From Candidatus Tectomicrobia bacterium RIFCSPLOWO2_12_FULL_69_37 (lineage in GTDB: Bacteria > UBA8248): a DNA stretch of 43,888 bases. Made by a program: the position numbers and the translations under genes. The stretch covers positions 1,245-45,132 of the forward strand of contig MGDP01000132.1 of NCBI GenBank assembly GCA_001790955.1, in the 5' to 3' direction. Shown here in pieces: positions 30,809-36,568 of this stretch. The notes under the pieces are model-generated. The model was not told the origin of the DNA and did not search any database. It saw nothing but the letters and a program-made list of their open reading frames with translations. Numbering within the stretch: position 1 is the first letter of the stretch; the number at the start of each line of letters is the position of its first letter.

Positions 30809-31003
30809 TTAGGCCTTGGCCAAGTGTTGCATCCGATCCTTGAGGGCCAGCTTCTGCTTCTTGAGCGCCTTGATCGCAAGTTCTTCCTCGGGGGTGGGGA
30901 ATCGGACGCTCTCCAGGCGGCTGAGCTTCTCGTCCAATTCGTGGTGCTCGGCCTTGAGGCGGCTGATTTCGTCGATAGCCCCTGGCATCTGGCCGGACTG
31001 CAT
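30809..31003 (-). CDS. DUF465/YdcH-like small protein
   Basis: EISRLKAEHHELDEKLSRLESVRFPTPEEELAIKALKKQKLALKDRMQHL. Confidence 0.8.
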   Translation of the reverse strand: MQSGQMPGAIDEISRLKAEHHELDEKLSRLESVRFPTPEEELAIKALKKQKLALKDRMQHLAKA

Positions 31004-31099
31004 GCTGCACCCTCCCATGAAAGGAAGACCGTCATGGCGGCGGGCTGGGAATAGCCGCCGCAATTAAACAGGGGAGATTTCGTCACTCCTGGTCTGAAA

Positions 31100-31843
31100 C
31101 TAAGTCAAAGATGGGCCGTGGTCAACACCCGGGGGAGCCCCCCACTGGGTCATGGCCCGGGGCTCCCGCCCGTAGCGGGGCTCGAGGCCGGGCGGGGCAG
31201 GAGGCTCCCGGCGCATGAGGGCCTCCCGGGCCAGGCGGGCAACGGCCGGAGCCGCTGTCGAGAGCGCTACGTGCGAAACCCCCACCCAGGCGGCCCAGGC
31301 GGGAGGGAGCGCCGCGTCCGAGCCGACGGCCAGGGTCCGCCCTCGGGGAAGGGCGATGCGCGAGGGCTCCGCCACTCCATCCTCGCCCTCCCGGCGGGGG
31401 AGGCCCCCGGGCGCTTGAGGGGCCTCGAAACGCGCCCAGAAGAGCTCCCCTTGGCGGGCGTCCCGGAAAGGGAGAATCCACTCGGGCGGCTCTCCCTTCG
31501 GGCGGAGGCGCCAGGCCAACAGCGCGAGGGCCTCCAGGGAGGAGACGCTGTAGAGCGGGATTCCCAGGGCGAGGGAGAGGCCCTTGGCGGTGGAGAGGCC
31601 GATCCGCAACCCCGTGAAGGTGCCCGGGCCGGTGGCCGCGCCCACGGCGGCGAGGTCCTCCCGCCGGACGCCCGCCTCGCGGAGCAGGAGGTCCAGCGCG
31701 GGCATGAGGGCGCGCGAGCTGCGGGCGCCCGCATCGAGCGCCCGCCCGGCGAGGGTCTCGCCCTCCCGCTCGAGGAGGGCCAGCCCGCCGGCCGCCCCGG
31801 ACGTGTCGATCCCCAGGATCCAGGCGCGGCCGCCGGAGGGCAT
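31100..31843 (-). CDS. tsaB: tRNA threonylcarbamoyladenosine biosynthesis protein TsaB
   Basis: ILGIDTSGAAGGLAL, GPGTFTGLRIGLSTAKGLSLAL. Confidence 0.9.
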   Translation of the reverse strand: MPSGGRAWILGIDTSGAAGGLALLEREGETLAGRALDAGARSSRALMPALDLLLREAGVRREDLAAVGAATGPGTFTGLRIGLSTAKGLSLALGIPLYSVSSLEALALLAWRLRPKGEPPEWILPFRDARQGELFWARFEAPQAPGGLPRREGEDGVAEPSRIALPRGRTLAVGSDAALPPAWAAWVGVSHVALSTAAPAVARLAREALMRREPPAPPGLEPRYGREPRAMTQWGAPPGVDHGPSLT

Positions 31844-31847
31844 GGGC

Positions 31848-32792
31848 TCAGCGGGCTCCGGGCTGCTGGGAGAGGTAGAAGGCCAGCCGCTCGAGCTCGC
31901 TCCCGAGCTCCACGGTCTGCACCTTGATGTGGGGGGGGGCGGTGATCTGGGTGGGTGCGAAGTTGAGGATGCCCTTCACTCCCGCCTCGACGAGCCGGTT
32001 CGCCACCGTCTGGGCGCTCTCGCTCGGCACGGCCACGATGCCGATGCGGATGTCCATCGCGCGGATCACCTTCGCGAGCTCCTCCATCGGCCGCACGGGC
32101 GGCCAGCCGGGTTTGAGGGGGGCGACCTGATCCGGGAACTTGTCGAAGACCGCGTCGATGGTGAAGCCGTGGGCGAGGAACCCCCGGTAGGAGAGCAGCG
32201 CCAGCCCCAGGTTGCCCGCCCCCACGAGGGCCACCTTCCAGACCCGGGTGACACCCAGGATGGTCCGGAGGTTCGCCTTGAGGTCGCGGACCTCGTAACC
32301 CTTGCCCCGGACCCCGAACTCGCCGAAGTAGGCGAGGTCCTTCCGGATCTTGGCCGGGTTCAGCCCGCAGCGGCGCGCCAGCTCGGCCGAGGAGACGACG
32401 CGGCTCCCTTCCTCTTCCAGGCGGTTGAGCACCCGTGCGTAGGTGGAGAGGCGGCCGACCGTGACGGCGGGGATCCTCGCCTTCGGGTCTCGCAGGCGCC
32501 GGAGAATCTCCATAAGCTCGGGGAAGGGGAATCCCCTCCGCCGCGTGGCCGCCGGAGGGGCGCCGAAGTCCTCGGCGACCTGGGCCTCGCTCAGGCCCGC
32601 GCGGCGCGCAAGCTCCGCCACGGGGACGTGGGAGGGCCTTTCTTTTTCGAGGGTCCGGGCGGCGGCGGCGTAGAGGGCGAGGCGCTCGTGGAGGTCGGGG
32701 GGAGGCTTCCGGCCGGAGCGGGGGCTCGCGGAGGGAGCGGGCGTTCCTTGCCCCGAGGGAGCCGGGCGCGCCGCTTTCCGCTTGCCAGCCAT
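31848..32792 (-). CDS. rex: Redox-sensing repressor Rex with extra N-terminal winged-helix-like domain
   Basis: Canonical Rex from residue ~107: IRKDLAYFGEFGVRGKGYEV, VGAGNLGLALLSY, GILNFAP; extra ~100 residues resemble the Rex winged helix. Confidence 0.92.
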   Translation of the reverse strand: MAGKRKAARPAPSGQGTPAPSASPRSGRKPPPDLHERLALYAAAARTLEKERPSHVPVAELARRAGLSEAQVAEDFGAPPAATRRRGFPFPELMEILRRLRDPKARIPAVTVGRLSTYARVLNRLEEEGSRVVSSAELARRCGLNPAKIRKDLAYFGEFGVRGKGYEVRDLKANLRTILGVTRVWKVALVGAGNLGLALLSYRGFLAHGFTIDAVFDKFPDQVAPLKPGWPPVRPMEELAKVIRAMDIRIGIVAVPSESAQTVANRLVEAGVKGILNFAPTQITAPPHIKVQTVELGSELERLAFYLSQQPGAR

Positions 32793-32858
32793 GGGGGTAG
32801 CCGCCGGCGGGAGGCGGGTGGAGGCGGTGGCCGCCTCCCCCCGCTCCTCAGAAACCGC

Positions 32859-33188
32859 CTATCCGAGGATGATGATGAGGCAGATGACGAAGGTGTAGAT
32901 GACCAGCGACTCGATGAGGGCGAGGCCGATGATCATCGAGACGCGCAGATCGCCGCCCGCGCCGGGGTTGCGGGCCGTTCCCTCGAGGGCGGCCGCGATG
33001 GTGCGCCCCTGGGAGACGGCGCCCGCGGCCGCCGCGATGGCCAGGGCGAAGGAGGAGGAGATGATCCTCCACTTGAGGACCTCGCCGCTGGCGCCTCCGG
33101 GGGCGGCGGCCGCTGCGGCCGCGAGGGCGTCGGTGGCCAGGGCCGCCAGGGCGGTGAGGGCGAGACCGAGAGTCGTCAGCCGTTTCAT
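32859..33188 (-). CDS. atpE: F0F1 ATP synthase subunit c with N-terminal signal-like extension
   Basis: AVSQGRTIAAALEGTARNPGAGGDLRVSMIIGLALIESLVIYTFVI. Confidence 0.92.
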   Translation of the reverse strand: MKRLTTLGLALTALAALATDALAAAAAAAPGGASGEVLKWRIISSSFALAIAAAAGAVSQGRTIAAALEGTARNPGAGGDLRVSMIIGLALIESLVIYTFVICLIIILG

Positions 33189-33230
33189 TCGCTTCTTCTC
33201 CTTGTTCAGGTTTTCGGCCGGGCGCCGATT

Positions 33231-33947
33231 CTAATGGGCGTGAGCGGCCTCGTGCCCATGCTCGTCGTGTTCGTGGCCTTCCAGCGAACCGGCGATGTAT
33301 ATCATGGTCAGGAGGACGAAAACAAAGGCCTGGATGAAGCTTCCGAAGATCGCGAACATCTGCATGGCCCAGGGGAGGGGGAGGTATACCTGCAGGCAAA
33401 GCAGCATGAGGACGGCGAGGACGAGGTCCTCCCCCGTGATGTTGCCGAAGAGGCGCAGCGTCAGGGAGAGGGGCCGGGCGAAATGGGAGATGAGCTCGAT
33501 CGGCACCATCAGGGGGGCCAGCCAGATGATGGGGCCCGTGAAGTGCTTGAGGTAGCCCCAGCCGCTCTGCTTGAAGCCGACGTAGTGGGTGGCCAGGAAG
33601 ACGGTGAGGGCGCAGCCGATGTTGGTGTTGATGTTGCTCGTGGGCGACATGAAGCCGGGCAGGATGCCCATCACGTTGCTCAAGAAGAGATAGACACCCA
33701 GGGTGAAGACGAGGGGGAAGTAGGGCCTCCCCGCGGGCCCGAGCGTGCCTTCCATGAAGGAGGCGACGGCCTCGAAGAGGGTCTCGAAGACGTTCTGCCC
33801 GCCGTAGGGGATGGTCTGGAGCGCCCGGGTGACAAGCAGCGAGGCGGCAATGAGGAACGCCATCACCACCCAGGTGTAGAGGACGTTCGGGTACTCGCCG
33901 AAGCCCGGGATGAAGCCGAGGTAGAGATAGGGGTGGAATTTTTCCAT
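33231..33947 (-). CDS. atpB: F0F1 ATP synthase subunit a
   Basis: ELISHFARPLSLTLRLFGNITGEDLVL and FGSFIQAFVFVLLTMIYIAG. Confidence 0.94.
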   Translation of the reverse strand: MEKFHPYLYLGFIPGFGEYPNVLYTWVVMAFLIAASLLVTRALQTIPYGGQNVFETLFEAVASFMEGTLGPAGRPYFPLVFTLGVYLFLSNVMGILPGFMSPTSNINTNIGCALTVFLATHYVGFKQSGWGYLKHFTGPIIWLAPLMVPIELISHFARPLSLTLRLFGNITGEDLVLAVLMLLCLQVYLPLPWAMQMFAIFGSFIQAFVFVLLTMIYIAGSLEGHEHDEHGHEAAHAH

Positions 33948-33950
33948 TCG

Positions 33951-34370
33951 CTAGATCCCCGCCGAGGCCGCCTTCCCGCTCCGGCGCAGGGCGGCGGCGG
34001 CCCCGTGGAGCGAGATGGCCATGAGGGGGACCGACAGCCCCGCAGCCACGCCCACCACGGACGCCTTCAGCCAGACGACAGCCGCCGCGACAGCGGCCAG
34101 CAGGCCGATGAAGCGGGCGCCGTAGAGCGCGTGGTGCCACCAGCGGGGGCGGCCAGCCCCTCTTTGGAACATCCGGGCGACGTAGAGGTCCAGGCAGCGG
34201 AAGTTCCCCAGGGCGAGCGCGCCTCCGAGGCCCAGGCCCCAGGCCTGGCCGGCGGGGAGCAGCCCCGCCGCCGCCAGCGTCAGCGCCCCCAGGAGGATCC
34301 AGCCGAGCCTTTCAATGCGCTTGAGCGTCCGCTGGGGCTCCGGGCCCGGGGAGAAGCGATGCCGTTCCAC
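33951..34370 (-). CDS. ATP synthase subunit I family protein
   Basis: Four hydrophobic segments, GGALALGNFRCLDLYV, immediately upstream of atpB. Confidence 0.7.
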   Translation of the reverse strand: MERHRFSPGPEPQRTLKRIERLGWILLGALTLAAAGLLPAGQAWGLGLGGALALGNFRCLDLYVARMFQRGAGRPRWWHHALYGARFIGLLAAVAAAVVWLKASVVGVAAGLSVPLMAISLHGAAAALRRSGKAASAGI

Positions 34371-34631
34371 TCAGCGCGCGCTCCTGAGAATTTCCATGAA
34401 TGCGGCGGCGAACCCGAGGGCCATGCCCGCCACCATCGCCCAGGGGTAGGAGCCGAGAAGCTTGTCCGCCCCGTAGCCCAACGCCCCCCCCACCAGGGGG
34501 GCGGTCACGAAGTTCCACCCCAGCGAGGCGGCCCGCAGCTGGCGAAGACGCTCGGCAACCTTCCCGCCCGGGGGGGCGCCGGAGCCCTTGGGAGTGGGGG
34601 CTGGGTCGTCCGGGGGGATGCGAGAGGTCAC
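34371..34631 (-). CDS. AtpZ/AtpI-like F0F1 accessory membrane protein
   Basis: LGWNFVTAPLVGGALGYGADKLLGSYPWAMVAGMALGFAAAFMEILR. Confidence 0.8.
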   Translation of the reverse strand: MTSRIPPDDPAPTPKGSGAPPGGKVAERLRQLRAASLGWNFVTAPLVGGALGYGADKLLGSYPWAMVAGMALGFAAAFMEILRSAR

Positions 34632-35112: not shown

Positions 35113-35173
35113 CGGAATACCAGGAGGTTGGCTGTATTGTTGTTAATATTATAATTTGGAGGTCGACCGGTCG

Positions 35174-36568
<1,395 letters not shown>

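Follow-up and report, generated by a model that had tools for sequence, protein, structure and literature searches.

Results

A rex gene with an N-terminal extension behind the F0 genes

The window analysed here is a stretch of 43,888 nt from Candidatus Tectomicrobia bacterium RIFCSPLOWO2_12_FULL_69_37. On its minus strand, an ATPase_gene1 family gene, atpI, atpB, atpE, rex, a tsaB-like gene, a DUF465 gene and a gene for an acetolactate-synthase-like TPP enzyme follow one another. The features considered in this work are, by window position:

31100–31843, minus strand: tsaB-like gene, directly downstream of rex (PF00814, E 1.7e-24)
31848–32792, minus strand: rex, 314 aa, redox-sensing repressor with tandem winged helices (NCBIfam Rex equivalog, PF06971 and PF02629)
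31851–32249, minus strand: NAD(H)-binding Rossmann domain and C-terminal helix, residues 182–314 (PF02629, E 4e-16)
32250–32477, minus strand: copy 2, canonical Rex winged helix with RKDLAYFGEFGVRGKGY, residues 106–181 (best PF06971 stretch)
32478–32693, minus strand: copy 1, degenerate Rex-type winged helix, residues 34–105, ~72 aa (shuffles, PF06971, hhalign, AlphaFold2)
32511–32513, minus strand: in-frame ATG (M94), potential start of a 221-aa single-domain Rex
32526–32564, minus strand: wing of copy 1, residues 77–89, one residue shorter, basic (RRRGF), wing Arg kept
32565–32588, minus strand: recognition helix of copy 1, residues 69–76, with A73/E74 in place of the Rex R/K (contact residues from PMC8836258)
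32694–32792, minus strand: basic tail, residues 1–33 (AlphaFold2 pLDDT 35–41 over residues 1–30)
32859–33188, minus strand: atpE (F0 subunit c), directly upstream of rex (PF00137, E 7.7e-13)
33231–33947, minus strand: atpB (F0 subunit a; PF00119, E 4e-54)

The gene length of 314 aa and the coordinates in the original prediction were correct; the interval 32256–32684 singled out there corresponds to residues 37–179 and runs from the RL..Y motif of copy 1 to near the end of copy 2. The 3.3-Mb draft genome contains a single rex. Throughout the family, rex is located behind atpE, as it is in L013 and L014, two genomes further removed; the position of an NADH sensor gene beside the F0 genes is suggestive, and Rex may affect atp. 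The order atpB-atpE-rex-tsaB (window positions 30809–34631) is kept across the family (loci L006–L012) and in at least one more distant genome (L013); in L014 atpB-atpE-rex is followed by an ispE-like gene. A sigma-54 activator with AAA+ and Fis-type HTH domains (35156–36568) is divergent from the atp-rex gene cluster.

Residues 106–314 form a complete Rex core

The protein scored 267 bits against the NCBIfam Rex equivalog NF003993 (cut-off 217), and both PF06971 (85 bits) and PF02629 (60 bits) were above their Pfam cut-offs. The whole-protein match to PF06971 (E 3.7e-24) had its best stretch in copy 2. T. maritima Rex was the closest solved chain (E 2e-45), with an alignment that starts only at residue 106. 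In that protein, Arg48 and Lys49 read bases in the major groove and Arg60-Gly61 engage the minor groove, while Arg12, Ser33, Lys43, Ser52, Gly58 and Tyr64 contact the backbone (PMC8836258). Copy 2 keeps R150, K151, R162 and G163 in all three species of the genus examined here. In the Rossmann part, GAGNLG at 191–196, Y202 and D217 align to residues 89–94, Y100 and D115 of the T. maritima NAD site, and K120 of T. maritima Rex aligns to Q222. The features of Rex membership were hence present: the equivalog match, the Rex_N plus CoA_binding (Rossmann) architecture, the base-reading and wing residues, and the NAD(H) site. Copy 2 is very likely the operator reader.

The extension is a second Rex-type winged helix

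Copy 1 and copy 2 reached a local BLOSUM62 score of 82, compared to a mean of 24.6 (sd 4.5, maximum 55) for shuffled sequences (Z 12.7), none of 2000 shuffles attaining the observed value. The same test gave Z scores of 11.1 and 10.3 in the two related species, and in the third species of the genus the alignment of both copies was gap-free over 60 residues. An ungapped match with 18 identities in 40 had been counted by eye in the original prediction; our recount gave 18 of 39 residues, with 73 of 117 nucleotides identical. Searched alone, copy 1 had Rex_N (PF06971) as the best Pfam family in all three species (E 3e-5 to 8e-5, 3e-5 for the window's copy; next best 0.015–0.019). PF06971 was also the only family matched by all three sequences, every other family matching at most one. 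In hhalign, the copy-1 profile aligned over 69 columns to 14 single winged helices of Rex proteins encoded in other genomes (probability 97, pairwise E 1e-10).

AlphaFold2 modelling of the whole protein assigned copy 1 a pLDDT of about 67–86 and the first 29 residues values below 50, and predicted for copy 1 the same order of elements as in copy 2 (long helix, short strand, two helices, strand, helix). The pTM of this full-length model was 0.45; therefore it does not place the domains relative to one another. Modelled alone, using an alignment with one relative, copy 1 reached a pLDDT of 85.7 and a pTM of 0.74, and is thus predicted to fold still as a winged helix. With this model as query against the PDB, the top 36 matches were all Rex chains (TM 0.60–0.76 by query), followed by TetR-type proteins; the E-values were modest (0.01–0.5), as expected for 78 residues, and the Rex-first ordering was unbroken.

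A generic HTH or an unrelated fold for copy 1 was ruled out by the Pfam, hhalign and fold searches, and an assembly artefact was ruled out because the extension occurs in three separate assemblies. The extension is almost certainly a Rex-type winged-helix domain in tandem with the canonical one. The original prediction had described an extension of ~100 residues; its domain character holds for residues ~34–105, whereas residues 1–33 are a basic tail of low model confidence. Neither an unrelated fold nor disorder emerged for the domain from the profile-profile and fold comparisons that it had suggested, and the homologues within the genus do align to Rex winged helices. The tail, probably disordered as judged from the model, begins with MAGKRK in all three species and contains 7–11 K/R but only 0–1 D/E.

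Copy 1 has lost the base-reading residues

At the positions of T. maritima Arg48/Lys49, copy 1 carries Ala/Glu, Ala/Glu and Leu/Asp in the three species. The major-groove base readers are gone in all of them, one by charge reversal, whereas copy 1 retains the Arg of helix 1 and a basic wing: Arg12 is matched by Arg in three of three species, Arg60 by R/R/R and Gly61 by R/R/K. Among the backbone contacts, Ser33 is replaced by V/P/P and Tyr64 by F/F/I. As 35 of 76 columns are invariant, the retention of the two arginines could be chance. The counterparts of RKDL read AEDF, AEDL and LDDL. The loss of RKDL...FGEFG stated in the original prediction is accordingly confirmed for the R-K pair and the FGEFG wing start, but not for the D-L/F half, which is retained.

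Because both base-reading residues were lost in all three species, copy 1 likely does not read the operator. The window's copy 1 is almost without net charge (13 K/R, 11 D/E); therefore a possible DNA role would rest on the wing and the tail.

The second winged helix is restricted to one genus

The extension was found in all three species of the genus examined, the Rex proteins of the two relatives being 87% and 80% identical to the window's Rex over the full length. In the sister genera within the family, the frame before the Rex core is short or lacks a second domain, and the atpE-rex spacers (187–280 nt) of eight sister-genus loci gave no trace of copy 1 with either profile. An older duplication with remnants in the sister genera was rejected on the basis of these spacers. 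With a profile (A6) built on the tandem stretch, Rex was found in 156 of 386 genomes from many families; among the matches listed, only the three members of the genus matched from position 1, and the others started at position 51 or later. PF06971 surveys of 40 genomes from one further phylum and 112 from another showed no adjacent pair among the matches listed. Likewise, 40 Rex frames preceded by a long open stretch yielded no second winged helix, while both positive controls were recovered. Such surveys could miss a tandem copy that diverged independently. A duplicated winged helix was not described in the open-licence literature on Rex structures and regulons. Among the Rex proteins surveyed by sequence, the second winged helix is an architectural variant restricted to one genus of uncultured Tectomicrobia-like bacteria.

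Two other arrangements were noticed. The Rex at sister-genus locus L012 (G008, around 1405–1506) has a lysine-rich tail of ~30 aa (MVKKKSSKTPLKKSR...) and no second domain, and the basic tail may predate the duplication. At L072 (G336 C361:2700–4200), the Rex winged helix lies inside a stop-to-stop open frame of 937 aa with one detectable winged helix, which may be a fusion or an open frame by chance.

Origin of copy 1

The mean score of copy 1 was highest with the genus's own copy 2, and single Rex winged helices of other phyla came close (L014 74, L019 73, against 79 for the own copy 2). In the tree, copy 1 stood on a long separate branch, and approximately unbiased (AU) tests neither rejected nor supported an origin within the genus (p 0.24) or within the family (p 0.36). 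The long branch and the nearly equal scores of foreign winged helices would be expected if copy 1 had come from another rex by fusion or recombination, an origin compatible with any function. We consider this quite improbable, since the own copy 2 has the highest mean score, a clade of copy 1 with it is not rejected and the genome lacks a second rex gene. Internal duplication of the own rex is the simplest reading. Of the internal duplication proposed in the original prediction, the Rex-type tandem and the degeneration of the DNA-reading helix were borne out; the own gene as source was neither rejected nor demonstrated (AU p 0.24).

Selection on copy 1

Between species, copy 1 is 46–72% identical, copy 2 94.6–96% and the Rossmann part 92–94%. 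The dN/dS values of copy 1 (bootstrap intervals in brackets) were 0.40 (0.20–0.82), 0.71 (0.40–1.23) and 0.48 (0.25–0.96) for the three species pairs, indicating purifying selection in two of them, with intervals below 1, while the remaining pair was indistinguishable from neutrality. Copy 2 had values of 0.05–0.09, and copy 2 together with the NAD(H) domain 0.05–0.10. Copy 1 is constrained, several times more weakly than the rest of Rex.

Operator scans

Operator scans bear on the regulon and not on Rex family membership. The sequence TTGTGAAN4TTCACAA was not found in the window when up to 3 mismatches were allowed, and the operators of a GC-rich uncultured phylum may differ from this consensus; TTGTGN8CACAA had no site in the window's genome. 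One-mismatch versions of the latter palindrome numbered 37 in the three genomes of the genus versus 12 in the reversed control, a clear excess seen only in this genus. The inspected ones resemble CRP-type sites (TGTGATCTAGATCACA) near an FAD oxidoreductase-like gene and were not assignable to Rex. Near-perfect palindromes kept in two species, TTGTGATCTAGATCACAC (L054:1524–1541, G000 C100) and GTGTGATCTGAATCACAA (L067:1105–1122, G002 C283), are located between a gene for an FAD-dependent oxidoreductase-like protein and a divergent gene and look like CRP-family sites.

Discussion

With a probability of roughly one half, the whole is best explained by a duplicated winged helix whose first copy serves as a non-reading accessory module at the operator flank. 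The Rex winged helix would have been duplicated in tandem in the ancestor of the genus, with its own gene as the source. Judged from their intact residues and from solved relatives, copy 2 and the Rossmann domain would do the ordinary work of Rex: with NAD+, the dimer would spread its recognition helices and bind the operator, and with NADH it would be released. Copy 1 is predicted to fold yet would no longer read the operator. Helix 1 of S. agalactiae Rex begins with residues that contact the DNA phosphates, namely Pro8, Lys9 and Ala10 (PMC8376106); by alignment, they correspond to residues 108–110 of the window's Rex. The last helix of copy 1 ends near residue 101–103, about five residues before Pro108. 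Because it is tethered this closely to a DNA-contacting point, copy 1 should, in the bound state, come to lie beside the DNA at the operator flank, one per subunit. Its basic wing and the tail would most likely add a contact to the backbone or minor groove that is not sequence-specific and tunes the affinity or the NAD+/NADH switch point, which is the weakest step of the proposal. Copy 1 would thus probably alter the manner, and not the site, of DNA binding by the repressor. The accessory function at the DNA flank itself is put forward tentatively. Going further, a dimer with four winged helices, in which selected contacts of the second pair with operator-flanking DNA or the partner subunit give the NADH/NAD+ switch a new setting or the operator a new length in this genus, appears unlikely.

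The main rival is that copy 1 is a functionless leftover of the duplication, tolerated and slowly decaying, whose frame is maintained solely by the Rex core downstream of it. Its identity between species of 46–72%, as opposed to ~95% for copy 2, dN/dS values of 0.40–0.71 with one pair indistinguishable from 1, and the missing base readers in three of three species all fit such decay. The open frame is by itself no evidence of function, because the conserved Rex core to which the domain is fused follows in the same frame. However, a relic would have to be reconciled with purifying selection in two of three pairs, with its retention in all three species, with its confidently predicted fold and with the invariant MAGKRK at the start; we regard it as somewhat unlikely, though a serious contender. 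Copy 1 could instead be a protein-protein module that binds the partner subunit, e.g. competing for the swapped C-terminal helix, or another regulator, and thereby shifts the NAD+/NADH switch. Release by NADH is driven by packing of the Rex winged helix on the partner's C-terminal helix (PMC8836258). A copy with the fold but without DNA reading could keep the packing surface. This possibility ranks third among the functional readings and seems improbable.

If the extension were untranslated, Rex would start internally, e.g. at M94, which is placed where a canonical Rex could begin and would yield 221 aa; no obvious Shine-Dalgarno sequence directly precedes M1 in the window's sequence. Still, M1 is the sole start before the core that is common to all three species. 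The extension is probably translated, because the ATG of M94 is absent from both relatives, one of which lacks any ATG, GTG or TTG in the interval from residue 67 to residue 121. That the codons of copy 1 are under purifying selection in two pairs likewise speaks against an exclusively internal start, which is thus highly improbable; M94 is possible as a second start in the window's species only.

As for the wider interest, Rex is an NADH/NAD+ switch that has been studied in depth, and in all of its solved structures each subunit has just one winged helix. A winged helix that was doubled and then disarmed is a natural experiment in re-tuning a two-state repressor without touching the sensor, and the sister genera without copy 1 provide a ready control. 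If the reading with four winged helices were true, a redox sensor would have been re-tuned by duplicating the domain with which it reads DNA and blunting one of the two copies; a relic would instead be a domain duplication caught mid-decay.

Tandem winged helices with unequal binding roles exist, e.g. in the C-terminal part of SelB. That part likewise consists of tandem repeats of one winged-helix fold; it belongs to an unrelated family with an unrelated ligand and is a precedent for the principle only. The Rex proteins of the sister genera (L006–L012) have a core 61–64% identical over residues ~101–312 and the same gene order, but lack the second winged helix. Compared with the Rex family, represented by the proteins of T. 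maritima (5zz5/7wb3), Thermus (1xcb/3ikt) and S. agalactiae (3ket), residues 106–314 are a complete canonical Rex, sharing RKDL, RGxGY, the GxGxxG NAD site and the C-terminal helix. Whereas the solved chains comprise 207–224 aa with one winged helix, the window's Rex adds a degenerate winged helix and a basic tail in front.
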